In this document: piece by piece, positions 43,517-64,000 of the stretch | Layout of the letters: the number at the start of each line of letters is the position of its first letter | Numbering within the stretch: position 1 is the first letter of the stretch | NCBI GenBank assembly: GCA_902623255.1 | Contig: CACNSY010000005.1 | Span: 1-64,000, forward strand | Direction of reading: 5' to 3' | From: an uncultured Alphaproteobacteria bacterium | GTDB taxonomy: Bacteria > Pseudomonadota > Alphaproteobacteria > HIMB59 > GCA-002718135 | Length of the DNA stretch: 64,000 nucleotides | Translations under genes and position numbers: made by a program | The notes under the pieces: model-generated | Databases searched by the model: none | Told to the model about the DNA's origin: nothing | What the model saw: only the letters and a program-made list of their open reading frames with translations

Positions 43517-44437
43517 TTATTTACCCCAATTGTAAGTAAGTAAATCATATCTTTTTGCAAAATTGAGTAATAAATTTTTTGTATCTAAATCTAACGGCTG
43601 AATAGGATCTCTACAAAAATCTGATTTTATTACACCGCCCTCTTTCATTACTGTTTTAGTAGCTCTGAAACCACATTGTCTATTTTCAAAATTTATTAAA
43701 GGTAGAATATTATTATATATTTCTTCAGCTTTATCTTTTTCATTATTCCAAAAATGATCAATTACTGGAGCAATTTTTTCGGGAAGCAAGGCTGAACTCA
43801 TACTACCAGAAATTCCAGCTTCTAAGTCTGCATACAAAGTGATACTTTCCTCCCCATCAAAAGGTGCATCTAGTCTTTCACTACAATTTTTAATAAGTGC
43901 TCTTATTTTTGAAGCAGCGTTAGCACTTTCAATTTTAAAGCAGGTTAAATTCTCAATCTCATTTATCATCTTTGTCAGTAAGGGAACTGAAAGTTCAATA
44001 CCGGATAAGGGCGCATCTTGAATCATAATTGGTATGCCAACTTTTGAAATTTCATTAAATTGCTCAAATATTTGATCTGGATTACCCTTTAACAATGCAC
44101 CATGATAAGGAGGCATCATCATAATAATATCCGCACCAAGTGACTTTGCTAATTCTGCTCTAGGTCGTACAATATCAGTAGCAAAATGACTAACTGTAAC
44201 TATTGTTTTAACTCTTCCATCAATTTTTTTCATACAGAGTTTTGTTAATTTTTCTCTTTCATCATCAGAAAGTAAAAATTGTTCGGAATAATTTGCAAGA
44301 ATGCATATACCTTGAACTTTTTGATCCACCATACAATCCAATACTCTTTCCATTCCTTCATAATCAACTTCGCCATTATCATGAAATGGTGTTGGTGCTA
44401 CTGGCCACATTCCAAAAAATTTATATTTTTTTTTCAT
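43517..44437 (-). CDS. Dihydrodipicolinate synthase-family aldolase/dehydratase
   Basis: The 306-residue TIM-barrel protein has the Schiff-base Lys in CFKIESANA, MMMPPYHG at the Tyr strand and WPVAPTPF at the N-terminus. The usual GTTGE loop reads LANYSEQ, so it is not a true DapA. The subfamily includes 2-keto-3-deoxy-sugar-acid dehydratases and aldolases. It lies 8 bases after the GH2 gene at the end of an arabinoside-type operon, so L-2-keto-3-deoxyarabonate dehydratase is a plausible role; this is inference. Confidence 0.85.
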   Translation of the reverse strand: MKKKYKFFGMWPVAPTPFHDNGEVDYEGMERVLDCMVDQKVQGICILANYSEQFLLSDDEREKLTKLCMKKIDGRVKTIVTVSHFATDIVRPRAELAKSLGADIIMMMPPYHGALLKGNPDQIFEQFNEISKVGIPIMIQDAPLSGIELSVPLLTKMINEIENLTCFKIESANAASKIRALIKNCSERLDAPFDGEESITLYADLEAGISGSMSSALLPEKIAPVIDHFWNNEKDKAEEIYNNILPLINFENRQCGFRATKTVMKEGGVIKSDFCRDPIQPLDLDTKNLLLNFAKRYDLLTYNWGK

Positions 44438-44445
44438 ATATATGT

Positions 44446-46272: not shown

Positions 46273-46278
46273 TTTGAA

Positions 46279-47799: not shown

Positions 47800-47801
47800 C
47801 A

Positions 47802-48632
47802 CTAACCTTTAATTCCAGAAGTTAACATTATTGCTTGAGTAACGCGTTTTTGGAAAATTAAGAAAAATGCCGTAACGGGTAGAGCGGCAAGAATGGCAAC
47901 TGCCATATCTCTCGCTAAAAATATTCCGTAAGCATCACTAACAGATGTTATTGCTACAGGAACAGTGAACATTTCAGCTTTAGTTGTCATTATAAACGGC
48001 CAAAAGAAATTATTCCATGCTCCAATAAATGTAACTAAGGCTAAAGCAGTTGTGATGCCCCAGTTTAAGGGCATATACACTTTTATTAAAATTTGAAATT
48101 CAGTTGCTCCATCAATGATACTTGCTTCTCTTAATTCCTTAGGAACTTGATCAAAAAATTGTTTATAAACTATGACACAAACTGGTGAGAGAACTTGAGG
48201 TAATATAACTCCAGACCAAGTATTGATCATGTTAAAATCTGAAATGAGGACAAATAGAGCAATAACTAATGCTGTTCCAGGAACCATTATGCTTACTACT
48301 ACTGCTAAAAGAATAATTTTTCTTCCGACAAAATCTATTTGAGATAAAGCATAACCACATGGCATACTAATCAAAATAACTAAAAGCGTAATGCCAACTG
48401 AAGTGGCAATAGAATTTATATACCACGTACCAATTGCAGATTTTGTTAATACATCTAGATATGCTGCTAATGATAAAATTCTTGGAAAAATAGACCAGTT
48501 TGGATCTATAACTTCAGTTTCTTGTTTTAGTGAAGTAACTGCAGCCCAATATAATGGAAACATAAAAATTAATGCAACTATTAAAGAAAGAATTGTTAAG
48601 ACTGTCCAAGATATTGTAATTTTTTTTGTCAT
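47802..48632 (-). CDS. Sugar ABC transporter permease, MalG type
   Basis: The 276-residue protein has six predicted membrane helices and the EAA loop LREASIIDGATEFQILIKVYMPL, which keeps the family Gly. It has TSLKQETEVID after helix 1, and its C-terminal segment is QAIMLTSGIKG, as in MalG subunits. It pairs with the MalF-type partner; the stop of that gene abuts its start. The same operon carries GH51 and GH2 enzymes, so it probably imports an arabinose-containing glycoside. Confidence 0.93.
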   Translation of the reverse strand: MTKKITISWTVLTILSLIVALIFMFPLYWAAVTSLKQETEVIDPNWSIFPRILSLAAYLDVLTKSAIGTWYINSIATSVGITLLVILISMPCGYALSQIDFVGRKIILLAVVVSIMVPGTALVIALFVLISDFNMINTWSGVILPQVLSPVCVIVYKQFFDQVPKELREASIIDGATEFQILIKVYMPLNWGITTALALVTFIGAWNNFFWPFIMTTKAEMFTVPVAITSVSDAYGIFLARDMAVAILAALPVTAFFLIFQKRVTQAIMLTSGIKG

Positions 48633-49513
48633 TATTTATCTTTTTCCTTATCTCTCAAAACATAATATTGCATTATAGACACAACTATAATTATTAAGAA
48701 AAGTACCATAGCTATTGCAGAAGCATAACCTCCTCTATTCATTTGAAAACCTTGTTTGTAAACTAATTGTAAAACAACTAATGTTGAATTAAATGGACCA
48801 CCTGCAGTTAATAAATACATTTGATCAAAAATTTTAAGTTGAAAAATTAATTGCAATGTTAAAACAAGAGCTGTGATAGGCCAAATCAAAGGCCAAGTTA
48901 TATATCTGAACTTAGCCCAAGAATTTGCTCCATCCAAATCGGATGCTTCGTAAATTTCTGGATTAATCGATTTTAGACCAGCAATAAATAATAAAATATT
49001 GAAACCTACGGTCCACCAAATTGTTACAATTGCTACAGCTGGCATTGCAAATTGTTTTTTCTTGAAAAAAGCAATTTTTGCATAACCCAAAAATTCTAAG
49101 AATTCTTGAATAATTCCGTATTGTTTAGATAACATCCAAGACCAAACTTGAGTTACTACCGTAACAGGTAAAATGTGTGGTATAAAGAAACAAGCTAAAA
49201 GAAATGCTGCAATATACGGATTTTTAAGTCTATTGATCATCATTGCACACATCAGACCAATTAAAGTATTTGGCACAACTGTCCAAAAAACAAAAACAAA
49301 TGTATTTTTTAATGATTTAAGAAAAAGTTTATCATTAAAAAGCTTAATATAATTTTCTAAACCTACCCACTTACCCCATCCAATTAAAGGAGAGTCAGTG
49401 AAACTGAATAATAAAGTATAAATTGTAGGATAAAGTAAAAATAGAACATAAAAAAATATAAAAGGGAAAGCAAGCAAGAGGCCCCAAAAATTTGAATTAC
49501 TATATTTTTTCAT
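48632..49513 (-). CDS. Sugar ABC transporter permease, MalF type
   Basis: The 293-residue protein has six predicted membrane helices and the EAA-type loop PEIYEASDLDGANSWAKFRYITWPL. It begins with FWGLLLAFPFIFFYVLFLLYPT, the typical first helix of MalF/UgpA-type permeases. It overlaps the MalG gene by one base. It is separated from the binding-protein gene by a 59-base gap that holds a perfect stem-loop. Confidence 0.93.
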   Translation of the reverse strand: MKKYSNSNFWGLLLAFPFIFFYVLFLLYPTIYTLLFSFTDSPLIGWGKWVGLENYIKLFNDKLFLKSLKNTFVFVFWTVVPNTLIGLMCAMMINRLKNPYIAAFLLACFFIPHILPVTVVTQVWSWMLSKQYGIIQEFLEFLGYAKIAFFKKKQFAMPAVAIVTIWWTVGFNILLFIAGLKSINPEIYEASDLDGANSWAKFRYITWPLIWPITALVLTLQLIFQLKIFDQMYLLTAGGPFNSTLVVLQLVYKQGFQMNRGGYASAIAMVLFLIIIVVSIMQYYVLRDKEKDK

Positions 49514-49523
49514 ATTTTAAATT

Positions 49524-49550
49524 TAAGCTGCAGTAAAGTACTGCAGCTTA
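49524..49550 (-). terminator. Stem-loop after binding-protein gene
   Basis: A perfect 10-bp inverted repeat (TAAGCTGCAG / CTGCAGCTTA) with a 7-base loop lies 22 bases after the binding-protein stop and ahead of the permease gene. It matches the layout of the stem-loop at 11283-11305 in the other importer, suggesting a common way to raise binding-protein message over permease message. Confidence 0.7.
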
Positions 49551-49572
49551 GTTTTATAAAAAGATCTTAACT

Positions 49573-50835
49573 CTACATTAGAGCTTCAAGATCATCTCTC
49601 ATCATTTGAATTGCTTCTTCAGCACTTAATTCACCATTAACTGCCGGAGCAATATAGTTACTAAAAGCATCATAAGTTGGTGAAGCAACACCTGCGATAG
49701 GTAAGAATGGATCTACAACCATATTTTCACCAATATTAGCATAAGTGCTATTTGGCTGCATATTTTTATAGAATACACTATCTACAACTTCTGTATTTGC
49801 AGGTATATGACCAGCTGTTCCCCAGAAGAGACTATTATCACTCATCCAACCCATAACTTTTAAAACTGCTTCCAGTTTCTCATCGGATATTGGATTTTTA
49901 TCACTGTGAGGAATAGCAAATGCATGCGAATCAGACCACGTAGCCATTTTAGGACCAACTTGAGGCATATCTACAACACCAAATTTGAAACCTAATTCAT
50001 TATTTCGCATTAAATCAACCATAGTAGGAACTTCCCATACACCGTTGATGTGAATTGCCGACTCACCACTTATAAACATACCTTTTGCAGATTGGTAATC
50101 TACGTTACTTGGCATATATCCTTTTTCAACAAGATCGATTAAAATTTGTAAAGATTTTTCACATTTATCTCCAGGACAAATACTACTTCCGTCTACGAAA
50201 TCTCCTTCCATCATGTTAAGGATCGAATACCACCATCTCCAAATCATACCTCCGTTATCAGAAGCGAAACCAATTGGAAATTCCATCATTTCATCTAGTT
50301 TAGCTAGACCATTCATAAAATTGTCTACACCATCTAATAATGTTGGATGACCATTTTCATCAAGTAAACCAGCTTCACCCAATACTTCTGCATTAAAATA
50401 CATAACGTTAGCATGAATATCTAGTGGAACACCATGCGTTGCACCTCCAAAGTTAGCTGCTTCCCAGTTAGCAGGAAAAAATCTATCAGCTGTAATTCCA
50501 ACACTTGCTAGTTCTTCAGCACTTATTGGTCTTAAAACTCCAGTAGGTACTGCTAGAGGGAATCTTGATAAATGATAAGTCATAATATCAGGTTGCTCTC
50601 CAACAGCTGCAGATGTTTGAACTTTAGTATAAAATGGAACACCCCATTCTAAAGTTGTAGCATTAATTTGGATATCAGGATGAGCTTCATTGAAATTATC
50701 AATCATTTGCTTCATTCTAACACCATCTCCACCACCTAGAAAATCCCACCAAACAACTTCAGTAACTGCAGAAGCACCAAATGAGTAAATGGAAATTACT
50801 ATTCCAGCGAAGAAAGAAATAATTTTATTTTTCAT
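49573..50835 (-). CDS. Sugar ABC transporter substrate-binding protein
   Basis: The 420-residue protein has a signal peptide (KIISFFAGIVISIYSFGASA) and then VTEVVWWDFLGGGDGVRMKQ, a family 1 solute-binding protein start. The segment FNEAHPDIQINATTLEWGVPFYTKVQTSAAVGEQPDI is typical. I start it at ATG 50835 because GGGAGG lies 5 bases ahead; an in-frame TTG 12 bases further upstream lies within that ribosome site. It is the first gene of the GH51/GH2 operon and lies 134 bases from the divergent phytanoyl-CoA dioxygenase-like gene. Confidence 0.94.
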   Translation of the reverse strand: MKNKIISFFAGIVISIYSFGASAVTEVVWWDFLGGGDGVRMKQMIDNFNEAHPDIQINATTLEWGVPFYTKVQTSAAVGEQPDIMTYHLSRFPLAVPTGVLRPISAEELASVGITADRFFPANWEAANFGGATHGVPLDIHANVMYFNAEVLGEAGLLDENGHPTLLDGVDNFMNGLAKLDEMMEFPIGFASDNGGMIWRWWYSILNMMEGDFVDGSSICPGDKCEKSLQILIDLVEKGYMPSNVDYQSAKGMFISGESAIHINGVWEVPTMVDLMRNNELGFKFGVVDMPQVGPKMATWSDSHAFAIPHSDKNPISDEKLEAVLKVMGWMSDNSLFWGTAGHIPANTEVVDSVFYKNMQPNSTYANIGENMVVDPFLPIAGVASPTYDAFSNYIAPAVNGELSAEEAIQMMRDDLEALM

Positions 50836-50885
50836 AATTCCTCCCAAAATTATTTAATAATAAAATTTAATACCATTTAATTGTC

Positions 50886-50981: not shown

Positions 50982-51782
50982 ATGACAAAATTACCTGATA
51001 TCGATAGTTATTATAACTTAGAAAAAGAAAAAATTGATTTTTTTTGGCAAAATGGGTTTGTAGTTTTAAAAAATGTTTTATCAAAGAATGAAATTTCTAA
51101 ATATAGAGATGAAATAAAAAAAGTAGCAGAAAAAAGAAATAAAAATAAAGATAAAGAATTTGGTGGTGCTTTTTATCAAGCACTTAATATTCGCTATGAT
51201 TCAAAAGGCGTTGAAAAATTTTGTTTATCAAAACGTTTAGGGAAAATTGCTGCTGATTTAATGAAGGTTAATGCTGTTCGAATTTTTCATGAACAAGCAA
51301 TTTTTAAACATCCAGGAGATACAAAATCCTACTGGCATCAGGATCAATTTTTTTGGCCACTTGATACAAATCTTCATATTGGATTATGGATGCCATTAAT
51401 CGATTGTAATAAAGATATGGGAATTATGCGATTTGTAAAACAATCACACAATATGGGTGATTTAATGGGTGTATCAATAAATGAAAAATCAGAAGATCAT
51501 TATGATAAAATAATTGAAGAAAAAAAATTGGAAGTTGTCGAATTAAATTCAATAGATGCTGGTGATTGCACTTTTCATTTTGGATGGACTATTCACGGAG
51601 CTGGATTAAATAAATCAGACAAAATACGTGAAGCAATGGTTGTTACTTACTATGCAGATGGATCTCGCGTAGGTAAACTTGATACAAAAGATAGAAAAGG
51701 TGATGCTGAATTATTTCTTGGTGGAAAAAAAGCAGGAGAAATAGCAAATCATCCAATGAATAAAATTGTTTATCAACACTAA
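50982..51782 (+). CDS. Phytanoyl-CoA dioxygenase-family Fe(II)/2-oxoglutarate enzyme
   Basis: The 266-residue protein has the iron-binding HxD in SYWHQDQFFWPLD and the distal His in GWTIHGAGLNKSDKIRE, where the following Arg is the 2-oxoglutarate ligand. It belongs to the PhyH family, whose bacterial members hydroxylate diverse small molecules. The substrate is unknown. It is divergent from the arabinoside operon across a gap with repeated half-sites, and it converges on the Gfo/Idh/MocA gene with a 4-base overlap. Confidence 0.88.
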   Translation: MTKLPDIDSYYNLEKEKIDFFWQNGFVVLKNVLSKNEISKYRDEIKKVAEKRNKNKDKEFGGAFYQALNIRYDSKGVEKFCLSKRLGKIAADLMKVNAVRIFHEQAIFKHPGDTKSYWHQDQFFWPLDTNLHIGLWMPLIDCNKDMGIMRFVKQSHNMGDLMGVSINEKSEDHYDKIIEEKKLEVVELNSIDAGDCTFHFGWTIHGAGLNKSDKIREAMVVTYYADGSRVGKLDTKDRKGDAELFLGGKKAGEIANHPMNKIVYQH

Positions 51783-52759
51783 ATATTTATAACTTTTTTT
51801 AATTTAAAAGATTTAATTGATGCAAGTGCAAGTTCTAAGGCACGTTTTCCAGCCTCAGCATGTATTGGAGGTCTCTTCCCCTTGATGAAATTATTAATTA
51901 CTTCTTTATAATGCTCATCAAAAGTTCGTAAAAACTCTCTTTCGTAATCGTTAAAAAATCCTGCTTTCCACACTTCAGCGGTTTCACTATCTTTCTTATT
52001 AAATGTATATTTTTGTACTTGATCCTCTATTAAAATTCTTCCCTTTGAGCCGTTTATTTCAACATAATGGGAATTAGGATATTGATAAGATGTATCATAT
52101 GATCCAAGTAAACTTCCAATTGATTTATTTTTAAAATTCATTGATACAACCATTGTACTAAAACCTTTTTTTGTTTTATCTGTCATAAATGAATGAACTG
52201 ATTTTATTGGTCCATTTAAATATTCAAGCATATCAAATCCATGACATTGAGTTTCAATTAAGTTCCCATTAGGATCTAAATTTTTTCCACCTCCTCCACC
52301 ACCAAATCTCCATGTAATAAAATTAATTTCTCCAAGCTGATTATTTTTAATTGCTTTAATCGCTCTTTTTACAGGAGTTGAATAATGCCAATTAAAATTA
52401 ATTCCAAAAAAGAGATTTCTTTTTTTTGCTTCAGATAAAAGTTTATTTGCTTCACTCATTTTAAAAACAAGAGGCTTCTCAACAAATAAAGGAGTGTTAG
52501 ATTTAATCACTTTCATTGTCATGTCGTAATGATGCTCATTTGGAAGACTTATATTTATTAAATCAGGTTTTTGATTTTTTATTAGTTCTTTGAAATCAAT
52601 ATAATATGGAACATCATAAAGTTTGGCTCTGTTTTTAGTTCTTTCTTTATTTCTTCCTAAAATGCCACAGAACTCTACTTGAGGGCTTTGTGAAAGAATA
52701 CGGCAATGTTGTAAAGACCAATTACCAGTTCCAATTAGTGCAACTTTTATTTTTTTCAT
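51779..52759 (-). CDS. Gfo/Idh/MocA-family oxidoreductase
   Basis: The 326-residue protein has the N-terminal Rossmann motif IGTGNWSLQHCRI and the family motif FVEKPLVF, whose Lys is catalytic. NFNWHYSTPVKRAI follows. Members oxidise or reduce sugars and sugar derivatives with NAD(P). It is the last gene of the large minus-strand operon that starts at the binding protein at 62445, 3 bases after the zinc dehydrogenase gene. The substrate is probably a sugar released by GH127; that is inference. Confidence 0.9.
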   Translation of the reverse strand: MKKIKVALIGTGNWSLQHCRILSQSPQVEFCGILGRNKERTKNRAKLYDVPYYIDFKELIKNQKPDLINISLPNEHHYDMTMKVIKSNTPLFVEKPLVFKMSEANKLLSEAKKRNLFFGINFNWHYSTPVKRAIKAIKNNQLGEINFITWRFGGGGGGKNLDPNGNLIETQCHGFDMLEYLNGPIKSVHSFMTDKTKKGFSTMVVSMNFKNKSIGSLLGSYDTSYQYPNSHYVEINGSKGRILIEDQVQKYTFNKKDSETAEVWKAGFFNDYEREFLRTFDEHYKEVINNFIKGKRPPIHAEAGKRALELALASIKSFKLKKVINI

Positions 52760-52762
52760 AAA

Positions 52763-53797
52763 TCAATTATGAACAACAGCTATTTTACCTGCATCAGAAT
52801 CAGGAGAGAAGAAATGCTCATATGATTTTTGAACATCTTCAATATTATATTGATGTGTAATTATTTGAGATAAATATTCTTGATTATTTTTAAGTAATTC
52901 ATGATTTGCTTCCATCTCATTGTAAGAAAAATATTCACTACCAAGAATGCTTCTTTCAGGACCCCCCATATCTGGATATTGTTCAAATTCTAAACCTTCA
53001 CCATTACCAACCATAACTAATACTCCTCTTTTAGCTAAAGCTTGAAGTGCATTTTTTCTAGCTATTGCTTTGCCTGTGGCATCAATAGCAACATCAGGAT
53101 TTTTAATTCCGTGCTGATCCATGCCCTCTTCTAAAGATTGTTTTGATAAGTCTATAGGTAACCCACCCATCTTTTCTGCTAATGGTAATCTAGATGATTT
53201 AACATCATTAATCAGAACAGGTAAATCTTTTGCAAAAGTTAATTTACTCATCGCTAAAAGTCCAAGACCGATAGGCCCTGCACCATTGATTAGCACTGAT
53301 TGAATATCTTTATGAACTAACTGTGCTCTTTTAGTAGCATGACCACCAGTACCCATTACATCTAAAAGCAATGTCGCATTTATTACATCAACACTTTCAT
53401 CAACTGGAAAGAAAACATAGTCATTAACTAAGTAGTATTCACAAAATGCACCATCAATATTAAAACCATAATCACAATTTTTATGCAAACATTGATTAGT
53501 TAAACCTAATTGGCAACTTCGACATTTATGACAATAATCATACAAGTACACAGCACCTTTCATGCCAATATCAAATTTAGCATTTTTTCCTTTATCTACA
53601 ATTACTCCGGCCCCTTCATGACCTGGAATACATTGAGGACTTCCATTATAAAATTGATTTCTGTCTGAGCCACATAATAAATTTGCTTTTGCCTGAATTA
53701 AAAGTTGATTATCACCTGGAGTTGGAATTTTTCTTTCTTCAAAATGTACTTTACCTTCTCCGGTAAAGATTGGAACATTCATAAATTCATTTTTCAT
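52763..53797 (-). CDS. Zinc-dependent dehydrogenase (MDR family)
   Basis: The 344-residue protein has the catalytic zinc site (Cys in LLCGSD, His-Glu in PGHEGAG), the structural zinc Cys cluster in DYCHKCRSCQLGLTNQC, and the NAD-binding GAGPIGLG. It resembles sorbitol/threonine dehydrogenases. It likely oxidises a sugar or polyol released from the imported substrate. It lies 2 bases after the fourth MalG-type permease gene, within the large operon. Confidence 0.9.
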   Translation of the reverse strand: MKNEFMNVPIFTGEGKVHFEERKIPTPGDNQLLIQAKANLLCGSDRNQFYNGSPQCIPGHEGAGVIVDKGKNAKFDIGMKGAVYLYDYCHKCRSCQLGLTNQCLHKNCDYGFNIDGAFCEYYLVNDYVFFPVDESVDVINATLLLDVMGTGGHATKRAQLVHKDIQSVLINGAGPIGLGLLAMSKLTFAKDLPVLINDVKSSRLPLAEKMGGLPIDLSKQSLEEGMDQHGIKNPDVAIDATGKAIARKNALQALAKRGVLVMVGNGEGLEFEQYPDMGGPERSILGSEYFSYNEMEANHELLKNNQEYLSQIITHQYNIEDVQKSYEHFFSPDSDAGKIAVVHN

Positions 53798-53799
53798 AT

Positions 53800-54618
53800 T
53801 TAAGAAGAAGAAATTATACTCTTAAAATAAAATTTTTGAAGCAAAATGAAAATAATCATGAAAGGTAAGTAAGAAATTACATATCCGGCATATGGATAAA
53901 TTGACCTAAATCCAATTTTAGAAAGAGTGACATTTAACATTTGCATATCAGCAGAGTTCATAATGATAAATGCAAGTAAATAATCTGTCCAAGAAATATA
54001 GATAGCAAATATAATTAAAGTAATTAAACCAGGGATAGCTAATGGAAGCATAATTGAAAAAAGAATTTGTATTTCTGAACTATCATTTAAAATTGCTACT
54101 TCCCGTAGAGATTTTGGGATACTATTAAAAGAATTGAACATTAAAAAAAAACCAATTGGCAAGACATAAATAGTATAAATGATAATTAAACCTAAATAAC
54201 TATCATTTAGATTAATTTTATAGAGCAGAATATATAAAGGAATAATTATTGAATAAACTGGAATTAAAAAAGGTAAAATTAATAAAATAAATATAAAATT
54301 TTTATAAGGTAGTTTTAGTAATGAAATGGAATAAGCTGCTAATACATTAATCATCAATGATAATATGACAGTTCCACTTGTTACAACCAAACTATTAAAA
54401 AAAGATTGTTTGAATGTATTTTTATTTGTTCTTATTTCTAAATCCCAAATAGAAAAAAAATTATTCAAAGTAAATGTACTTAAAAAATTATCAAACCTAA
54501 TTTCAGTTGTAGTTTTAAGAGAAAGAATTAATATTATTAGAACAGGAAATAATATTAAAATAGATAAAACAGTATTAATCGTATAATACCAAAACTTGTC
54601 CTTAAAAATAAAAGACAT
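53800..54618 (-). CDS. MalG-type permease, fourth and diverged copy
   Basis: The 272-residue protein has six predicted membrane helices and is homologous to the three other MalG-type proteins of the operon (shared FLIPVYSIIIPLY, SLREVAIL, LAIPGL, SWTDYLLAF). The EAA loop reads REVAILNDSSEIQ, so the conserved Gly is Asp. The usual C-terminal RGVTGSAVKE is replaced by FKSIISSS, and the SDWYWYY start motif is lost. It may couple poorly to the ATPase, or serve with an altered partner. It is the last permease gene before the dehydrogenases. Confidence 0.85.
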   Translation of the reverse strand: MSFIFKDKFWYYTINTVLSILILFPVLIILILSLKTTTEIRFDNFLSTFTLNNFFSIWDLEIRTNKNTFKQSFFNSLVVTSGTVILSLMINVLAAYSISLLKLPYKNFIFILLILPFLIPVYSIIIPLYILLYKINLNDSYLGLIIIYTIYVLPIGFFLMFNSFNSIPKSLREVAILNDSSEIQILFSIMLPLAIPGLITLIIFAIYISWTDYLLAFIIMNSADMQMLNVTLSKIGFRSIYPYAGYVISYLPFMIIFILLQKFYFKSIISSS

Positions 54619-54623
54619 CGCTT

Positions 54624-55520
54624 TTATTCTTTAACGGCACTTCCTGTAATACCCCTAATAAAGTATCTTTGTAAAATTGAATAAATAATAATAATTGGTA
54701 TAAAACTTATGATTGAACCTGCTGTTAAATTACCCCATTTCATTTCAAATTTAGCACCGCCAAGTGCTATTTTTGCAAGTGTAGTATTAAGCATAATATT
54801 TTCAGGACTATTAATATAAATAAAAGCTAAAATGTAATCATTCCATGAAATATATAAGGCAAAAACCATTACAGTTAATAATCCTGGTACTGCTAGAGGT
54901 ATCATTATTGTAGTCATAATTCTTAGTTCTGAAGTTCCTTCCAACAAAGCCACTTCTCTTAATGATGTAGGGATACTGTTAAAAGCATTTCTCATCATAA
55001 AAACGCCAATAGGCAGCATACCTGTTGCGTGTAAAAATATTAAACCAATATGAGTATCGGTTAAACCAAGAGATTTAAGTAATTTATAGATTGGTATAAT
55101 CAATGAAACTGCAGGAATTAATATCGGTAAAATTAATGCAATAAAAATTGCTTCTTTAAATGGTATTCTAAAAAAAGTTAAAGAATAACCAGCTAGTGTT
55201 GAAACGATTAAAGATAGAACAATAGTTCCTAATGTGACTATACTACTGTTAAAAAAAGCTCTTTCAATACCTGCTGTTATGGTTGTACTGCCAGATATTT
55301 TTTTTTGCAGTTTAGTCCTCATTTCATCATCGAAATTCCATGTGGTGTCATAGTACTCCCATGTCCAATTATGAGGATAGAAAGTTGGGTTACTTGTAAT
55401 TAATTCATCCGGGACCTTAACAGAAGAAATAAAAGTCCAGTAAATAGGGAATAATATTATAACTACTAAAGCATAGTTAATAACATAATACCAATACCAA
55501 TCAGATGAATACCTTTTCAT
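54624..55520 (-). CDS. MalG-type permease, third copy
   Basis: The 298-residue protein has six predicted helices and is close to the copy at 59405 across most of its length: the start RYSSDWYWYYVIN, EAA loop LREVALLEGTSELRI, SWNDYILAFIYINSPEN and the end RGITGSAVKE. A loop insert between helices 1 and 2 (MRTKLQKKISGSTTITAGIE) differs from the other copies and should face the periplasm. It has 5 bases to the fourth copy and 1 base after the second copy. It is a full-length permease. Confidence 0.92.
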   Translation of the reverse strand: MKRYSSDWYWYYVINYALVVIILFPIYWTFISSVKVPDELITSNPTFYPHNWTWEYYDTTWNFDDEMRTKLQKKISGSTTITAGIERAFFNSSIVTLGTIVLSLIVSTLAGYSLTFFRIPFKEAIFIALILPILIPAVSLIIPIYKLLKSLGLTDTHIGLIFLHATGMLPIGVFMMRNAFNSIPTSLREVALLEGTSELRIMTTIMIPLAVPGLLTVMVFALYISWNDYILAFIYINSPENIMLNTTLAKIALGGAKFEMKWGNLTAGSIISFIPIIIIYSILQRYFIRGITGSAVKE

Positions 55521-55521
55521 G

Positions 55522-56379
55522 TTACTCTTTTACGGCACTTCCAGTCACTCCTCTAACAAAGTATTGTTGAAGAAAAATATAGAAAATTATGATTGGTACA
55601 AAACTTATTATTGCGCCAGCATTTAAAAGCCCCCAAAAAGTATCAAATTGAGATCCTGCAAATGTTAGTTTCATAAGGAAGACATTTAACATTTCCATAT
55701 CAATAGTATTTACAAAGAGAAAAGCTAAAATAAAATCATTCCATGAACCATAAAGAGCAAAAACCATTAGCGTTAAAAGACCTGGTATGGCTAATGGCAA
55801 CATCACAGTAAACATAATACGTAATTCACTAGAACCTTCTAACAAAGCTACCTCACGTAAAGATGTTGGTATGCTCATAAAAGCATTTCTCATTAAAAAA
55901 ATACCTAAAGTTAACATGCCTGTGGAGTGAATTAATATTAAGCCTAAATATGAGTTCATCAATCCAAGCTCTTTTACTAATTTATAAAGAGGAATTAAGA
56001 GTGATATTCCAGGTATTAAAATTGGCATAATTATAAGTAAAAAAATAAAATGTCTAAATGGAGTTCTTAAAATAGTAAGAGCATATGCAGCTAAAGTAGA
56101 AATAACTGCTGACACCAGTACAGTTCCAATTGAAACAATTGCACTATTTGTAAATGCAGATCTTACATTACCTCTAGAGCTAGTAGGCTCTAAATTCCAA
56201 ATTCTTTCATAACTTTCAAATGTTGGATTTATAGGAAAGAGTGTTGGAGTATTTGTTATTAATTCATCAGGTGGCTTTATAGATGAAACAAAAGCCCAAT
56301 AAATAGGAAATGAAACAAGAATAATCAAAGTAACATTTATAAGATAATATAAATACCAATCTGTTTTATATTTTTGCAT
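55522..56379 (-). CDS. MalG-type permease, second copy
   Basis: The 285-residue protein has six predicted helices, the EAA loop LREVALLEGSSELRI with its Gly, FPIYWAFVSSIKPPDELI after helix 1 and the RGVTGSAVKE end. Its periplasmic loop insert (EPTSSRGNVRS) is short. I take ATG 56379 over the TTG one codon upstream. It follows the GH127 gene by 18 bases and begins a run of three MalG-type genes. Confidence 0.92.
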   Translation of the reverse strand: MQKYKTDWYLYYLINVTLIILVSFPIYWAFVSSIKPPDELITNTPTLFPINPTFESYERIWNLEPTSSRGNVRSAFTNSAIVSIGTVLVSAVISTLAAYALTILRTPFRHFIFLLIIMPILIPGISLLIPLYKLVKELGLMNSYLGLILIHSTGMLTLGIFLMRNAFMSIPTSLREVALLEGSSELRIMFTVMLPLAIPGLLTLMVFALYGSWNDFILAFLFVNTIDMEMLNVFLMKLTFAGSQFDTFWGLLNAGAIISFVPIIIFYIFLQQYFVRGVTGSAVKE

Positions 56380-56397
56380 CAATTAAATTAATTAAAA

Positions 56398-58344
56398 TTA
56401 ATTTTCATTAACCCATACTAACATTTCATTTTCGCCTCTGTTAGACCAGCAATAATATGGAATAAACTTGAGTGATGTTTCCATCATATCAGGTTTATCT
56501 TGAATATATAAATTATCAGTATCTTTAAATTTAAAACCTTTAGTTGTTAAAGAAATAATATCTTCAGAATGAATTTTTTCGTTTTTTTCATCAAGGTTAT
56601 TATTTGTATTTAAAACTAATTTATTTAAATAATTACCATTATCATGTTCTTCTAAACAATATAGAACAGGACCTCTAAATAAACATGCTCTTCCTACATT
56701 GTATCTAACATTTGGATTGGTGCGAACATATCTCGGAGAAAAATCAAAATGTAATTCAACAACATCATTTTTTTGCCAATTTTTATGTATTTTTGCATAC
56801 CCATTAACAACTTCATAATCGACTTTAGATCCATTAAGATTAATTTGCATATTCTTATCCCATGAAGGAATTCTAAAATAAATCGTTGTTTCCTTGTTAG
56901 CTGATTCAATTATTTCAATTTTTGAATATCCTTTATGAGGAAAATCACTTGTTTGATTTAATTTTATACCCTGAGGCTTATTCATAAAATTAGTTTCTGA
57001 TGAAATATACTGATCAACTACTAATGAATCTTCAAATTCATTGTAAATGTACATATCCATACTTGCAAATAGACGCGTGATATTTGGAGGGCAACAAGAA
57101 CACTTATGATATTCATCTCTTACCCCATGTCTTCTTTGTTGCGAATGTAAATAACCAGGATTACATTCTAAATAATTATCATAGAAAAATCCTTTTCCAT
57201 CAAGTGAAGTGCTAGCAAGTAATAAATTATACAAACTATTTTCAACAATATCACCATACTCACTATTTAATTCCATCTTCGACATTCTATTAGCAAAATA
57301 AATTAGCGCTATTGTTGCACATGTCTCAGCATAAGCCATGTCATTAGGTAAATCATAATCAAAAGTAAATCTCTCGCCTATATGAGCACTTCCAACACCA
57401 CTGTGTACATACATTCTTTTATCAACAATATTTCTCCATAAAGTTTTACAAGCTTTTAACATTTGCTCATCATTATTTAATCTTGCTAAGTCCGCCATGG
57501 CAGTAAACATGTACAGAGCTCTTACAGAATGTCCTTCAGCTGTCTTTTGATCAACTGGCCTCTCATGAGCCTGCCAATAATGCAAATCTCTAAATGTTTT
57601 ACCCATAAAATCTTGATCGAAAGCTGCAAAATCTCTCATTGCTGATGGCAATAATGAAAAATCAATTTCACCTTCTTTTTCCATTAATTTCTTTTTTTCT
57701 TTTACATAATAATGATCTTCGGGTTTTTCGTGGGTTCCACGTTCATCTATAAAGTAAGTTGCAAGATCAAGAAATTTTTTCTTATTTGTATGCTCATAAG
57801 CTTTTACAAGTGCTAATTCAATTTCTTGATGACCAGGATAGCCTCTCATCTTCCCTTCTTCTTTTCCAAATTTAGAAATAATATGATCAACATATCTTTC
57901 CATAGCATCGAAAAATTTTGAATTTCCAGTCGCTTTATGATGTTCAACTGCAGATTCAAGTAAATGTCCCGCGCAATATAATTCATGCCTATCTCTTAAA
58001 TTCGTAAATTTATTATCCGGTTCATGCTTTGAGAAAAAATAATTTAAATAACCATCTTCCTCTTGATTAGCGATAATTTTATCAATAATTGAATCACATA
58101 TTTGTTCTAATTTTTCATCCTTTTCTTGCTGCATAGAAAAGAAAGCACCTTCCATTAATTTTGCTAGATCTGACTCCCAAAAAATATGTGGTCTTTCTTT
58201 CACAGGATCATTGTCACCAGTCAACGCTCTAATTCTTCCAGTATCTTCAAATGATTTTAAAACTGCATATAAAGAAACGTTTTTGTTTAATTCTTTTCTC
58301 TCTTTCCAAAAACCATTATTTATTTTTGTATCTGTAATGTTCAT
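56398..58344 (-). CDS. GH127 beta-L-arabinofuranosidase-like enzyme (DUF1680)
   Basis: The 648-residue protein has the (alpha/alpha)6 barrel typical of GH127, with the zinc/nucleophile region at about residues 390-440: an acidic residue in YLECNPG and the HKCSCCPPN cluster, in which a Cys serves as nucleophile in known GH127 enzymes. A C-terminal beta-domain follows. It has no signal peptide. It would cleave beta-L-arabinofuranosides, such as those on hydroxyproline-rich glycoproteins, in the cytoplasm. It overlaps the ATPase gene by 4 bases and lies among the permease genes. Confidence 0.93.
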   Translation of the reverse strand: MNITDTKINNGFWKERKELNKNVSLYAVLKSFEDTGRIRALTGDNDPVKERPHIFWESDLAKLMEGAFFSMQQEKDEKLEQICDSIIDKIIANQEEDGYLNYFFSKHEPDNKFTNLRDRHELYCAGHLLESAVEHHKATGNSKFFDAMERYVDHIISKFGKEEGKMRGYPGHQEIELALVKAYEHTNKKKFLDLATYFIDERGTHEKPEDHYYVKEKKKLMEKEGEIDFSLLPSAMRDFAAFDQDFMGKTFRDLHYWQAHERPVDQKTAEGHSVRALYMFTAMADLARLNNDEQMLKACKTLWRNIVDKRMYVHSGVGSAHIGERFTFDYDLPNDMAYAETCATIALIYFANRMSKMELNSEYGDIVENSLYNLLLASTSLDGKGFFYDNYLECNPGYLHSQQRRHGVRDEYHKCSCCPPNITRLFASMDMYIYNEFEDSLVVDQYISSETNFMNKPQGIKLNQTSDFPHKGYSKIEIIESANKETTIYFRIPSWDKNMQINLNGSKVDYEVVNGYAKIHKNWQKNDVVELHFDFSPRYVRTNPNVRYNVGRACLFRGPVLYCLEEHDNGNYLNKLVLNTNNNLDEKNEKIHSEDIISLTTKGFKFKDTDNLYIQDKPDMMETSLKFIPYYCWSNRGENEMLVWVNEN

Positions 58345-59396
58345 ATTCTCAATCTCTCCTCACTATTAATATCAAAAAAGTAACAATCTTCTTTATTGAA
58401 GTTTAATTTTAAAACTGAATCAATATCATACTGTGTGTTTTTATCTGTTTTGACAATTAGATTTTGATTATTTGATTTAAATGTTACTAGATTTGCTTCG
58501 CCGGTTAATTCGACAGAATAAACCTTGGCAGATCCATTATTTGTATCAGAATCATTAACTATTTGAATTTTATCAGGTCTTACTCCAAGGGTAATATCAC
58601 CTTCATAATCAATATCAAAAGATGTCGTAAGACTATCAGAAATAAATTTTTTGTTTTCTACACGGCCATCAATCAAATTCATTGCAGGTGAACCAATAAA
58701 ACCAGCAACAAATTTAGAAGAAGGATCATCAAATATTACCTGCGGTTTATCAAACTGCAAAAGTTTTCCGTGGTTCATAACAGCAATTCTATTTGCAAGT
58801 GTCATCGCTTCTACCTGATCGTGAGTTACATATATTGTCGTTACGCCAAGTCGGTGGTGTAGATTTTTTAATTCTGCTCTCGTTGTAACTCTCAATATAG
58901 CATCAAGATTTGAAAGAGGCTCATCCATTAAAAAGACACGTGGTTGACGAACTATTGCTCTTGCTAAAGCAACTCGTTGCCTTTGACCACCTGATAGTTC
59001 CGCTGGCTTACGGTGTAATAAATCTTGCAATTCAACAAGTGAAGAGACTTCTTTAATGAGTTTATCGTGTTCTGAGCTTGGAATTTTTTTCATTTTTAGA
59101 GGATAAGCAATATTATTTCTAACAGTCATGTGGGGGAAAAGACTATAATTTTGGAATACCATTGATACATCTCTTTTTCTTGGGTCAACATCGTTTACAA
59201 TTTCATCACCAATTTTGATCTCGCCATCAGTTATATCTTCTAATCCAGCAACAAGACGCATAGTAGTTGTTTTACCACATCCTGAGGGTCCTAAAAGCAC
59301 AACGAATTCACCTTCATTGATATGAAGATTTACTTCATCAACAGCAGTAACATCTCCCCATTTTTTTGTTACATTTTTTAAATCTACAGAATACAT
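58341..59396 (-). CDS. MalK/UgpC-type sugar ABC transporter ATPase
   Basis: The 351-residue protein has Walker A GPSGCGKT, Q-loop MVFQNYSLFPHM, signature LSGGQRQRVALARA, Walker B VFLMDEPLSNLDA and the H-loop VTHDQVEAMT. A C-terminal OB-fold regulatory domain (about residues 235-351) has GVRPDKIQI. It drives sugar import and is the only MalK-type ATPase gene in the window, although three importers are encoded. It is 8 bases from the first MalG-type gene, and it may be shared. Confidence 0.96.
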   Translation of the reverse strand: MYSVDLKNVTKKWGDVTAVDEVNLHINEGEFVVLLGPSGCGKTTTMRLVAGLEDITDGEIKIGDEIVNDVDPRKRDVSMVFQNYSLFPHMTVRNNIAYPLKMKKIPSSEHDKLIKEVSSLVELQDLLHRKPAELSGGQRQRVALARAIVRQPRVFLMDEPLSNLDAILRVTTRAELKNLHHRLGVTTIYVTHDQVEAMTLANRIAVMNHGKLLQFDKPQVIFDDPSSKFVAGFIGSPAMNLIDGRVENKKFISDSLTTSFDIDYEGDITLGVRPDKIQIVNDSDTNNGSAKVYSVELTGEANLVTFKSNNQNLIVKTDKNTQYDIDSVLKLNFNKEDCYFFDINSEERLRI

Positions 59397-59404
59397 ATAA
59401 CCCC

Positions 59405-60331
59405 CTATTCTTTTACTGCGCTTCCTGTAACTCCTCTAACAAAATATTGCTGAAGAAAAGTATAAAAAATTATTATTGGAAGAAAACTAACAATTGAGCC
59501 CGCTGTTAGACTTCCCCATTTCATTTCAAATTGAGATCCACCTAATGCAATTTTCATTAATGAAATATTTAACATTGTATTTTCTGGTGAATTTATAAAT
59601 ATAAAAGCATAAATGTAATCATTCCACGAAACATACATGGCAAAAACCATAACTGTTAAAAGACCTGGGATTGCTAAAGGTAGCATAACAGAAGTAATAA
59701 TTTTTAATTCACTTGATCCTTCAAGCATTGCCACCTCTCTTAATGAGGAAGGAATGCTGTTAAACGCATTTCTCATCATAAAGATTCCTAAAGGCAACAT
59801 TCCACAAGTATGTATCAAGATTAAACCTAAATGAGTATTAGTAAGACCAAGGTCTTTTAATAATTTATAGAGCGGTATTATTAGAGAAATACCTGGTATT
59901 AAAATTGGTAATATTACTAATAAGAAAAAAAAATTTTTTAAAGGAGTATTTAAAACAGTTAGTGCATATCCCCCTAAGGTACAAACGATAATAGTTAGTA
60001 TAATTGTTCCAGCTGAAACTATTGCACTATTCATAAAAGGTCTTTTAACTCCTTCACCATCAAGTCTAAATTTGCTCTCAATTTCAACACCAGATGATTC
60101 TGAGTCTTCTGACTCAGTATCTTGAAGTCTTTTAAGTCTATCAAAATTCCAAATTTGATCATAATACTGTAGAGTTAAATCATGAGGGTAAAAAGTAGGC
60201 TCACTAGTAATTAGTTCACTAGGTTTTTTAAATGATGAAATAAGTGTCCAATAAATTGGAAAAATAATAATTATAACTAAAGTATAATTAATTGCATAAT
60301 ACCAGTACCAATCTGATGAGTAACGTCTCAC
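59405..60331 (-). CDS. MalG-type permease, first copy
   Basis: The 308-residue protein has six predicted helices, the EAA loop LREVAMLEGSSELKI, SWNDYIYAFIFINSPEN and the end RGVTGSAVKE. It has the longest insert between helices 1 and 2, with an acidic run (DTESEDSESSGVEIES) that should face the periplasm. The start is GTG at 60331, directly after the MalF-type stop. It is the copy directly partnered by gene order with the MalF-type protein and the ATPase. Confidence 0.93.
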   Translation of the reverse strand: MRRYSSDWYWYYAINYTLVIIIIFPIYWTLISSFKKPSELITSEPTFYPHDLTLQYYDQIWNFDRLKRLQDTESEDSESSGVEIESKFRLDGEGVKRPFMNSAIVSAGTIILTIIVCTLGGYALTVLNTPLKNFFFLLVILPILIPGISLIIPLYKLLKDLGLTNTHLGLILIHTCGMLPLGIFMMRNAFNSIPSSLREVAMLEGSSELKIITSVMLPLAIPGLLTVMVFAMYVSWNDYIYAFIFINSPENTMLNISLMKIALGGSQFEMKWGSLTAGSIVSFLPIIIFYTFLQQYFVRGVTGSAVKE

Positions 60332-61210
60332 TTAGTAATTCTTTCTAAATAAACGTAATTGAATTACAGTAAGTACAAAAAGTATTATCATTATAATTAC
60401 ACCAAGAGATGCAGCTGGACCTAATTTGAAATAATCAAATCCCATATCAACAGTGTGCATAACAAGTGTTTTAGTAGAGTTTGAAGGACCACCTCTTGTC
60501 ATAATTACAAATTGTTCATATGCTTGAATTGAACCTGCTATGGATAAAATTAAAGCAAGGGCAATTGAAGGTCTTAAAAGTGGAAGTGTTACATTCCAAA
60601 TTGTTTGCCATCTTGAAGCTCCCATTAATTTAGATGCTTCGTAATAATCATCTCTTATAGCTTGTAATCCAGCTATCAAAATAATCATTTGGATACCAGA
60701 AAACTTCCATGTAACCATAGCATTTACAGCCCACATTGAAGATGTTCCTGTTTTCCAAACATTAAGATTTTTATTTTCTCCACCAAAACCAAAAAATTCT
60801 AATGCATAAACAATAACTCCATACATTTCACTGTAGAGCCATAACCAGACATAACTAGCTGTAGCAAAAGACATAACGACCGGTAAAAAATAGATACTTC
60901 TAAAAAAAGTTGTTCCCCAAGCTTTAGCATTGCATAATAATGCGGTTCCAATAGCAACAACAAATAACATTGGTGTAACGGTTAAAGTGTAAACAAAAGT
61001 AAATTTCAAAGATTCCCAGAAACGTTCATCCTGGAACATAAAAATATAATTATCTAGACCTACCCACTTTGGTTTTCCAAAAAGTGGCCATTTGTGAAAT
61101 GACATGTAAAAAGAATTTACAAGAGGATAAAGAAAAAAGACTGCAAGTAAAATTAATGCAGGCGAAACCATTAAAAGACCAACGAGTTGTTCTTTTCGTA
61201 ATCTACTCAT
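60332..61210 (-). CDS. MalF-type permease
   Basis: The 292-residue protein has six predicted helices and the EAA-type loop DDYYEASKLMGASRWQTIWNVTLPLLRPS. It starts EQLVGLLMVSPALILLAVFFLYPL, the usual MalF/UgpA first helix. It lies 26 bases after the binding-protein gene and directly before the first MalG copy. It is the only MalF-type gene for the four MalG-type genes of the operon. Confidence 0.94.
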   Translation of the reverse strand: MSRLRKEQLVGLLMVSPALILLAVFFLYPLVNSFYMSFHKWPLFGKPKWVGLDNYIFMFQDERFWESLKFTFVYTLTVTPMLFVVAIGTALLCNAKAWGTTFFRSIYFLPVVMSFATASYVWLWLYSEMYGVIVYALEFFGFGGENKNLNVWKTGTSSMWAVNAMVTWKFSGIQMIILIAGLQAIRDDYYEASKLMGASRWQTIWNVTLPLLRPSIALALILSIAGSIQAYEQFVIMTRGGPSNSTKTLVMHTVDMGFDYFKLGPAASLGVIIMIILFVLTVIQLRLFRKNY

Positions 61211-61236: not shown

Positions 61237-62445
61237 TTAATGACCAGCATCAATGATTTTTTGCATGATTGCATTTTGTTCATCAAGAACTGTCTGCACA
61301 TCTTCACCAGCAAAAATTCGTTGATTTGCTACTTGCCATGGATCCATTAACTCCTGATAAACAGTTGTATAAGGAACATCTCCAACAGTAGATGCATTTG
61401 CAAATACCATGTGATCATCAGTTAGGTATGGATTACCTTCAAATAGATCTGCTCGAATTGGTATACCACCGTTTTTAGTATACACTTCGATTTGACCAGC
61501 TTCAGATAATACATATTCAATATATTCTAGAGCTGCTTCTTTAGCACCAGTTGTAACTGGGATTGCAATTAAGTCACCTCCGATAAATGCTGAATTTCTT
61601 GAACCATCACTACCCATAAATGCCGTAAATCCAGCATCTACTTTTTCTGTGTGATCTTTAACAACATTAATCATGAAGTTTCCTGTACCAATCATTGCAA
61701 TATCACCTGCTAGGAAGCCATCTTGTTTATCTGGCCAATCCCAAACATCAACGTTTTCTGGCACACAACCAATGTTAATTAAATTTTGGTAATGCTTAAA
61801 CCATTCAACTGTTTTTGGGTGATTTAACTCAGCTGTTTTACCATCTTTACTTACCCATGAACCACCATTTGCCCAAGCAACTGGCATACCTGTAAAGATC
61901 ATACCACCATAACTTTTTGAAGGCCAAGCCATCATTAGTTGTCCTCTTGCAGCAAAGTCTTCACACATACTTGTCATCTCTGCCCAATCTTTTGGAGGGT
62001 TTGGCATAAGTTTTTTATTGTAAACATAACCAGACACATCAGCAGCATTTGGCGCAGCAAAGTGTGTTCCATCATACGATCCTAATGCAAGCATTGGACC
62101 ATTTAATTGATCATAATATGGTTGTGACTTTAAAAAGTCAGTCATATCTTCTAATGCACCTATTGCTGCATAATAAGGAACATTAATTAAGTCGATGTTT
62201 GCAACATCAACTCTTTCACCTGCAGCAAGTGCAGCTGTAAATTTAACCTGAAAGTCAGCATGACCAATAAGGTTGTTAATAGCAACGATATCTTTTCCTT
62301 CGTCAGCCATTTTTTTATTAAACCCTTCAACCATCCAGTCTGACCATCCACCTCTACTCCAAATAATTAATTCTTCTGCAGAAGTAGTTTTAGCGAATGG
62401 AAGAATAGTTAAAGAAATTAAAAATAATTTAACTAGTAATTTCAT
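61237..62445 (-). CDS. Sugar ABC transporter substrate-binding protein
   Basis: The 402-residue protein has a signal peptide (KLLVKLFLISLTILPFAKTTSA) and a family 1 binding-protein fold, with EELIIWSRGGWSDWMVEGFN at the mature start and FTAALAAGERVDVANIDL. I start it at ATG 62445 because GGGAGG lies just ahead; the TTG four codons upstream falls in that site. It is the first gene of the ten-gene minus-strand operon ending at 51779. The sugar is unknown; the GH127 gene suggests an arabinofuranoside. Confidence 0.94.
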   Translation of the reverse strand: MKLLVKLFLISLTILPFAKTTSAEELIIWSRGGWSDWMVEGFNKKMADEGKDIVAINNLIGHADFQVKFTAALAAGERVDVANIDLINVPYYAAIGALEDMTDFLKSQPYYDQLNGPMLALGSYDGTHFAAPNAADVSGYVYNKKLMPNPPKDWAEMTSMCEDFAARGQLMMAWPSKSYGGMIFTGMPVAWANGGSWVSKDGKTAELNHPKTVEWFKHYQNLINIGCVPENVDVWDWPDKQDGFLAGDIAMIGTGNFMINVVKDHTEKVDAGFTAFMGSDGSRNSAFIGGDLIAIPVTTGAKEAALEYIEYVLSEAGQIEVYTKNGGIPIRADLFEGNPYLTDDHMVFANASTVGDVPYTTVYQELMDPWQVANQRIFAGEDVQTVLDEQNAIMQKIIDAGH

Positions 62446-62526
62446 ATTACCTCCCAATAATAAAAAAATTCTACAAAAATTATGATTGTATTACAATAGT
62501 TTATGAAAATATTATTAATTATGAGA

Positions 62527-63405
62527 TTATGTAAAATTGCTATTTTCAGGCATTTTTTTTGAGTTTTTTTCTTTATATGTTATTAATAAAACTGAAGAAA
62601 ATACCACAATTCCACCAATCCATGTCCATAAATCTGGAATTTCATTAAATATAAAATAACCAAATGCGGATCCAAAAATTAAGCCACTAAACCATATTGG
62701 TTGGGTAACAGATAGATCTGCATACTTATAAGCTAAGTTTAGTGATAAATGCAAAATTGTCCCTGAAATCGCAGCACAAAAAACATAAATTATTGAATTT
62801 ATTGATGGCATTTGCCAGAAATAAATTGCTAATGGTAAAGCAAATATAGTCATTAAAGTATATTGGTAAGTAACCATTGTAATAGGTGAATCATCTTTTG
62901 AGACAAATTTTGATAAAATAATTATGAAAGACCAAAAAGTTAATGAAATAAGAATCATAATTGTTCCAATATTAAAATCTACAAATCCAGGTCTTACAAT
63001 AATAAGCATTCCAACAAAACCTACTATTAATGCTAGAATACGAAACATATAAATTTTCTCTCTAAAAATTATAAAGCTTAGTAAAACTACAATTATTGGA
63101 CTTAAGAAATGCATAGCTTTGAATTGCTCAAAAGGTACATAAACTAAAGCGCCAAAACCTAAAATCATCACTGGGATATTGCAAGCGCCTCGTACTAAGT
63201 AGAATTTTAAATTCTTTGTCTTATAAGTAGTAAAATTATTTTTTATTAAATAGGGAAAAATAATCACTAAACCAAAAAAAAATCTCAAGAAGCCAATAGT
63301 ATAAACATTTGAATCATATTGAGCTGCACGAACTAAAACTTCCATGAGCACAGCAAAAAAAGATCCAGAAATTGTTAATAAAATTGCTCTGACATTATTG
63401 TTCAT
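62527..63405 (-). CDS. EamA/DMT-family transporter
   Basis: The 292-residue protein has ten predicted membrane helices in two EamA halves: RFFFGLVIIFPYLI, VPFEQFKAMHFLSPIIVVLLSFIIFREK (end of half 1) and YKYADLSVTQPIWFSGLIFGSAFGYFIFNE (end of half 2). It exports or imports a small metabolite; the substrate is unknown. It is a tandem paralogue of the next gene, 6 bases away. No Shine-Dalgarno sequence stands out. Confidence 0.9.
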   Translation of the reverse strand: MNNNVRAILLTISGSFFAVLMEVLVRAAQYDSNVYTIGFLRFFFGLVIIFPYLIKNNFTTYKTKNLKFYLVRGACNIPVMILGFGALVYVPFEQFKAMHFLSPIIVVLLSFIIFREKIYMFRILALIVGFVGMLIIVRPGFVDFNIGTIMILISLTFWSFIIILSKFVSKDDSPITMVTYQYTLMTIFALPLAIYFWQMPSINSIIYVFCAAISGTILHLSLNLAYKYADLSVTQPIWFSGLIFGSAFGYFIFNEIPDLWTWIGGIVVFSSVLLITYKEKNSKKMPENSNFT

Positions 63406-63411
63406 ATGATA

Positions 63412-64000
63412 TTAAAGTTTAACTGGTATTGATTGCTTTGCTATATCCTTTTTAAGATAATTTTCTCTATATGTAATAATAAGTATTGAAGAGAATATTA
63501 TTAAACCACCAATTATTGTCCAAATATCAGGCACTTCATCGAAGATTAAAAAACCAAATAAAGATGCAATTAATAATCGTGAAAAATTGACTGGTTGTAA
63601 TACTGATAAATCAGTCAATTTATAAGCAGTGTTGATACATAGGTGAACAATTGTTCCTGCTATTCCTGCAAAGACTAAATATATTAAAGTTTCTGATGAT
63701 GGAGATTGCCAAAAATATAAAGCAATAGGAAAAGATAAAAAAGTAACAAGAGTATACTGATAAGATAAAATCGTAAAAGCACTATCAACCCTTGCGGCAA
63801 ATTTTGTAATAATAACAACTACTGACCAGATAGAACAAGAACATAAAACTAAATAAGCCCCCACATTTATTGGCACGATTCCCGGTCTCAAAATAACAAA
63901 GACCCCAATTAGACCAATAAGCAAAGCACCAATACGAATTAAATAAATTTTTTCTTTCAAAAAAATTACACTTAAAACTACCACAATAATAGGAGTAACA
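63412..64000 (-). CDS. EamA/DMT-family transporter, 5' end missing
   Basis: The minus strand is open from the window edge to the stop at 63412, giving about 195 visible residues. They align with the second two-thirds of the paralogue at 62527-63405 (VTPIIVVVLSVIFLKEKIYLIRI corresponds to LSPIIVVLLSFIIFREKIYMFRI). An internal GTG is not the true start, because the match runs into the edge. It shows the same half-2 end, YKLTDLSVLQPVNFSRLL. It is a transporter of unknown substrate. Confidence 0.88.
   Translation of the reverse strand, partial: VTPIIVVVLSVIFLKEKIYLIRIGALLIGLIGVFVILRPGIVPINVGAYLVLCSCSIWSVVVIITKFAARVDSAFTILSYQYTLVTFLSFPIALYFWQSPSSETLIYLVFAGIAGTIVHLCINTAYKLTDLSVLQPVNFSRLLIASLFGFLIFDEVPDIWTIIGGLIIFSSILIITYRENYLKKDIAKQSIPVKL

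Follow-up and report, generated by a model that had tools for sequence, protein, structure and literature searches.

An operon with one malF and four malG genes

The sequence analysed here, referred to as the window, is a 64,000-nt stretch of contig CACNSY010000005.1 from an uncultured alphaproteobacterium. Its minus strand carries an operon (approximately 62457 to 51779) in which four paralogous genes for the MalG-type membrane subunit of an ATP-binding cassette (ABC) transporter accompany one gene for a substrate-binding protein (SBP), one malF, one malK, one gene for a GH127 glycoside hydrolase and two oxidoreductase genes. From 5' to 3' the order is SBP, malF, malG1, malK, GH127, malG2, malG3, malG4, alcohol dehydrogenase (ADH) and Gfo/Idh, all of them open frames. 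The MalG copies are designated G1 (the gene at 59405), G2 (55522), G3 (54624) and G4 (53800).

The SBP gene (61237 to 62457) matches Pfam SBP_bac_8/SBP_bac_1 and is followed by the operon's single malF (60332 to 61210), recognized by Pfam and by the NCBIfam models UgpA and GlcT. G1 (59405 to 60331; Pfam and NCBIfam) begins 0 bp after malF, at a conserved GTG start. The operon's only ATPase gene (58341 to 59396) encodes a MalK/UgpC-type protein with TOBE/OB domains, identified through Pfam and NCBIfam and passing the UgpC subfamily model (439.2 versus 432 bits). The product of the GH127 gene (56398 to 58344) is beta-L-arabinofuranosidase-like, with the catalytic, middle and C-terminal GH127 domains of Pfam. 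For G2 (55522 to 56379) the most likely start is the ATG at 56379 rather than the TTG at 56382, because the preceding residue is F in loci L039 and L048. Beyond G3 (54624 to 55520) and G4 (53800 to 54618), the operon ends with a zinc ADH-type sugar/polyol dehydrogenase gene (52763 to 53797) and a Gfo/Idh/MocA oxidoreductase gene (51779 to 52759), both assigned by Pfam and NCBIfam. Since spacing within the operon ranges from 26 bp at most to a 4-bp overlap, with gaps of 1, 5 and 2 bp along the G2-G3-G4-ADH segment, the genes are likely to lie on one transcript. A scan for promoters and terminators in the operon returned no more sites than in shuffled sequence.

The BPD_transp_1 domain scores above the Pfam cut-off in MalF and in all four MalG proteins, and the best NCBIfam models for the four copies are MalG-type (GlcU, UgpE, MalG). 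These data bear out the original prediction, made from the sequence alone, that four homologous MalG genes share an operon with one MalF and one ATPase. The BPD_transp_1 membrane subunits, the MalK-type ATPase with its C-terminal TOBE/OB region and the SBP_bac_1/8 protein place the system among CUT1 importers. It departs from the usual, though not strictly defining, composition of one MalF and one MalG gene per system, the ratio here being 1:4.

The copies differ most in their periplasmic loops

Identity to G1 is 68% for G3, 63% for G2 and 44% for G4. An AlphaFold2 model of G1 (mean confidence, pLDDT, 78.8), whose top matches in the PDB are SugB and MalG, was used to delimit regions, so that boundaries are approximate. 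Comparison of G1, G2 and G3 shows that identity between copies is lowest in the P1 loop, between transmembrane helices 1 and 2 (TM1-TM2; 0.40-0.51), and in the TM5-TM6 periplasmic loop, which we take to be the scoop loop (0.32-0.76). In the MalK-facing regions it reaches 0.72-0.86 (EAA loop) and 0.82-1.00 (C-terminal tail). Among columns fixed within each copy, those that differ between G1, G2 and G3 number 36 of 58 in the P1 and P3 loops versus 9 of 38 in the EAA loop and C-tail (Fisher p 0.0003; 0.0014 when the loops are compared with all other columns; columns are not independent). The divergence between copies is concentrated in periplasmic loops that face the SBP, and the MalK-facing parts are shared.

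All three of these copies retain the EAA-X3-G coupling loop, the scoop loop and the C-terminal G-x-VK tail, the features expected of a functional MalG. Their P1 segments vary in length: 63 residues with a net charge of -7 in G1, 40 residues in G2 and 53 in G3. The G3 loop is nearly invariant between genomes and, within G3, is under tighter constraint than the remainder of the protein (ratio of nonsynonymous to synonymous polymorphism, pN/pS, 0.015 vs 0.035), despite being among the regions that differ most between copies. In E. coli, MalG residues 70-72 on the periplasmic side touch MalE directly (PMC3150292), and the scoop loop of MalG takes part in the transfer of maltose from MalE (PMC8134467). 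The EAA-X(3)-G motif contacts MalK, and the C-terminus of MalG reaches into the interface of the MalK dimer, close to the Q-loops (PMC3150292).

Distribution and origin of the copies

Matches to the array were found in 15 of 102 genomes searched in the genus, including 'Pelagibacteraceae bacterium AG-337-I02' and uncultured Alphaproteobacteria isolates of the AG- series. Thirteen have all four copies in the same order, so that the arrangement of the window is indeed shared by related genomes. The other two are limited by their contigs: that of AG-457-D17 ends inside G4, and that of MarineAlpha5_Bin5 starts within the last part of G2 and continues through G3 directly to ADH, with no G4 in between. 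An assembly or amplification artefact is unlikely, as the same arrangement occurs on separate assemblies from many isolates. In a sample of 385 genomes of the class (E<=1e-50), only five match: the host, a second genome of its genus that also has the array, and three genomes that each carry one distant MalG.

One of the thirteen, AG-422-N03 (L049, L051; CACGNZ010000007.1), has six MalGs. Two extra SBP-MalF-MalG sets, whose MalGs are termed Gx and Gy, lie in the same operon between G4 and ADH, an insert that also holds two fatty acid desaturase genes, one ketopantoate hydroxymethyltransferase-family gene and one PhyH gene. Partial copies of SBP and malF also lie at the start of the AG-422-N03 contig; these may be genuine or a product of the assembly.

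In a maximum-likelihood tree, the four copies of all genomes and the two further MalGs of AG-422-N03 form one clade (support 100/99; 100/100 in a repeat tree), and each copy forms a clade of its own across genomes. The duplications are therefore local and predate the separation of these genomes. Outgroups were sampled MalGs from the same genome, genus, order and other phyla. Several were read on the wrong strand in the first tree; the repeat corrected all except out_L064, a misread row on a very long branch inside the G3 clade that is to be ignored. These faults leave the array clade unaffected. The copies thus arose by local duplication, as had been proposed, and have been maintained since. 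Import from different operons is ruled out because all copies fall in one clade apart from other MalGs. The branching order among copies is less firm, with supports of the deep forks under 95/80; a single clade of G1 to G4 without Gx and Gy is not rejected by the approximately unbiased test (p 0.42).

Selection on the operon and divergence of G4

Ratios of nonsynonymous to synonymous substitution (dN/dS) were obtained from Nei-Gojobori counts pooled over ortholog pairs (14-15 genomes for G2 and G3); the values are descriptive, since the pairs are non-independent and signs of recombination are present. They are 0.025 for the SBP, 0.012 for MalF (the lowest of the operon), 0.027 for MalK, 0.077 for GH127, 0.033 for ADH and 0.080 for Gfo/Idh. 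G1 (0.039), G2 (0.053) and G3 (0.021) are under strong purifying selection, similar to the core importer genes, which rules out a pseudogene array as far as these three are concerned.

G4 stands apart. It retains the SLREVA and SWTDY segments and lacks both a 7-residue stretch of the TM5-TM6 periplasmic loop (the scoop stretch) and the C-terminal G(S)AVKE tail. Of 13 genomes, 11 have D or N in place of the EAA glycine (Asp in the window) and the other 2 keep Gly. G4 thus does not show the full set of features (EAA-X3-G, scoop loop, C-tail) that mark a functional MalG. Its AlphaFold2 model (pLDDT 80.4) nevertheless adopts the MalG fold, with TM-scores of about 0.7-0.8 to SugB and MalG, and the frame is open in every G4 row examined. 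At 0.137, its dN/dS is about 2.5 to 6.5 times those of G1, G2 and G3: G4 is under constraint, but this constraint is relaxed. G4 is probably something other than an interchangeable MalG and should not be counted as one. The treatment of the four copies as equivalents fails on these grounds, and on the absence of G4 from one relative.

In the same operon, GH127 occurs as two allele classes (97-98% versus 87-89% identity), in operons whose flanking genes are mostly 97-100% identical. This pattern suggests allele replacement by recombination.

Possible partners and neighbouring genes

The host assembly measures 1.47 Mb and is 87% complete. Comparison of MalF-type with MalG-type matches revealed no unpaired MalF in the assembled genome, every other MalF-type gene adjoining a MalG-type gene. 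This finding, like the single clade, speaks against the view that the copies are unrelated and have MalF partners of their own elsewhere. A MalG-type match on contig C15, a short open frame, has no MalF match beside it, and no other MalG gene of the host is tandem. Since there is no spare MalF, the surplus MalGs of the array could pair only with the MalF of the operon or among themselves. Pairing with different binding proteins, as envisaged in the original prediction, found no support: at E<=1e-8, a search of this 87%-complete genome returned no second binding protein of the operon SBP's family.

Downstream of the array operon, a second CUT1 importer (SBP-MalF-MalG; 47802 to 50847, minus strand) has no ATPase gene adjacent to it. 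It lies in a segment (43517-50847) beside alpha-L-arabinofuranosidase-type, GH2 and DHDPS-family genes. Together with GH127, these neighbours suggest a region for arabinoside use, in which MalK is possibly common to both importers. Elsewhere in the window, two tandem EamA-family (DMT) transporter genes (62527-63999) lie upstream of the operon, and between 37389 and 42942 two proteins with guanylate/adenylate cyclase domains flank a mechanosensitive-channel protein with a cyclic-nucleotide-binding domain.

Tandem MalG genes in a second genus

In the HIMB59-type genus, which belongs to a sister family, an unrelated importer of the polyol type has the order malF-malG-malG' (L105:8109-10676 in G037; also L106-L108), its MalF being 28% identical to that of the window. 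Both MalG genes are adjacent in the 17 of 52 genomes that match at E<=1e-55. The two are 46-49% identical to each other; between genomes, malG is about 96% identical and malG' mostly 58-63%, rising to 89% in two. The EAA motif and the C-tail are kept in malG'. Multiplication of MalG alone against one MalF thus arose at least twice in this taxonomic order. Such arrangements are not a chance outcome of MalG gene placement, because none of 57 strong matches (E<=1e-38) in four other alphaproteobacterial genomes, inspected by eye on draft contigs, had a tandem MalG neighbour within 1 kb and the host itself has no other tandem MalG.

Discussion

The operon encodes a type I (CUT1) ABC sugar importer whose substrate is probably an arabinofuranose-containing glycoside. 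In the interpretation we favour, which we hold with evenly balanced confidence, G1, G2 and G3 would be alternative partners of one MalF/MalK2 core and G4 a diverged accessory. The single core might assemble with any of the three functional paralogs, of which MalG1, translated directly after MalF, would presumably be used by default. With G2 or G3 in its place, the heterodimer would present another periplasmic face (P1 and scoop loops), whereas its contact surface for MalK would stay the same. The altered face would serve SBP docking and substrate reception, and may change substrate handling. G4, without the usual scoop and MalK-contacting elements, may be drifting or have a non-canonical role. 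For G1, G2 and G3, exchange of the MalG half is the best-supported explanation, short of a demonstration. Somewhat more tentatively, half of the transmembrane heterodimer may be swappable in a type I importer, the paralogs differing in the loops that face SBP and substrate, and the repeated multiplication of MalG alone in one order of streamlined ocean bacteria may be a cheap means of broadening uptake.

Several observations weigh against exchangeable MalG subunits. Only one SBP of this family is at hand to use alternative docking faces, and missing partners must be judged from a genome that is 87% complete. The P1 loops of G1 and G2 are less constrained than the remainder of those proteins, as is that of G4. 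Finally, Gx and Gy of AG-422-N03 come with their own SBP and MalF; G2, G3 and G4 could likewise derive from earlier SBP-MalF-MalG sets and might not work with the MalF encoded next to G1.

The last point leads to the alternative that survives best, namely that G2 to G4 are remnants of such sets in an expanding and shrinking operon, with a minor role or on their way out. The two extra sets of AG-422-N03, in the same operon and with MalGs of the same clade, speak for it, as do the degeneration of G4 and its absence from MarineAlpha5_Bin5. However, the rate of evolution of G2 and G3 across 14-15 genomes is as low as that of the core genes, no broken copy was seen among those extracted, and AG-422-N03 holds G2 to G4 besides the extra sets. 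We consider this alternative unlikely as a description of present function, although it may be right as an account of origin.

Less probable still is that the extra MalGs pair among themselves, for instance G2 with G3, and join MalK in a second importer that has no MalF and draws on the same ATPase and SBP. In its favour, the array has three MalGs in excess of its MalF, and the genome offers no further unpaired MalF. G2 and G3 lie next to each other, 1 bp apart, and each retains its EAA loop and its C-tail. Other type I importers, such as those with ModB or MetI, use homodimeric membrane subunits. Yet the CUT1 structures we encountered are heterodimers of a MalF-type and a MalG-type subunit (MalFG, SugAB, alginate AlgM1/M2), and it would be unusual for the interface of a MalK dimer to receive two MalG C-tails.

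It is similarly improbable, if not slightly more so, that G4, together with the trailing malG' of the HIMB59-type genus, is a regulatory or decoy subunit that occupies MalF or the SBP without completing the transport cycle. A subunit that has lost scoop stretch, C-tail and usually the EAA Gly, yet keeps an open frame, measurable constraint and a predicted MalG fold, fits such a role, and malG' diverges faster than malG (58-60% versus 96% identity among the genomes first compared). Conversely, malG' keeps its EAA motif and C-tail, and simple relaxation accounts for G4 equally well. The least probable alternative is a dosage effect, whereby extra MalGs merely raise the supply of a subunit that is limiting or unstable: tandem genes in one apparent transcription unit, as gene spacing has it, would suit it, but near-identical copies would then be favoured, whereas these are about 59-68% identical, differ most in periplasmic loops and carry fixed copy-specific residues, and only MalG is amplified.

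We found no description of MalG arrays in the open-licence literature. The array resembles the E. coli MalFGK2-MalE system (type I, CUT1) in its MalF, MalG, MalK and SBP composition and in the EAA-X3-G loop, and G1, G2 and G3 keep both the C-tail (PMC3150292) and the scoop loop (PMC8134467) of E. coli MalG. It differs in having four MalG genes per MalF, P1 loops of varying length, and a G4 without scoop stretch and tail. Thermotogales mal1 and mal2 likewise represent related mal operons in one genome, and their MalG has a large hydrophilic insert between TM1 and TM2, the same place where the array copies differ (PMC2246101). There, however, each MalG sits in its own malEFG operon, with no array facing one MalF. 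CUT1 systems sharing the ATPases MsmK or MsmX show that two or more permease pairs may depend on a single ATPase (PMC4519317, PMC5730181), but whole pairs are involved, whereas here the MalG half alone is multiplied. In the mycobacterial trehalose importer LpqY-SugABC, SugB is the closest solved relative of the MalG copies in sequence (E 1e-38) and fold; that system has a single SugA and a single SugB. The idea resembles that of energy-coupling factor (ECF) transporters, in which exchangeable S-components act as membrane specificity subunits on one energising core; their architecture is unrelated and they have no extracellular binding protein.

The host probably belongs to the AEGEAN-169/HIMB59 group, whose members are abundant in the ocean and combine reduced genomes with an unusually large number of transporters (PMC10308909, PMC11366302). 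In a genome of about 1.5 Mb, surplus membrane subunits under purifying selection need a functional explanation. Should the MalG half prove exchangeable, transporter inventories based on one substrate per operon would put the uptake range of these bacteria too low, and the paralogs would amount to a natural experiment on the part MalG plays in SBP docking and specificity.

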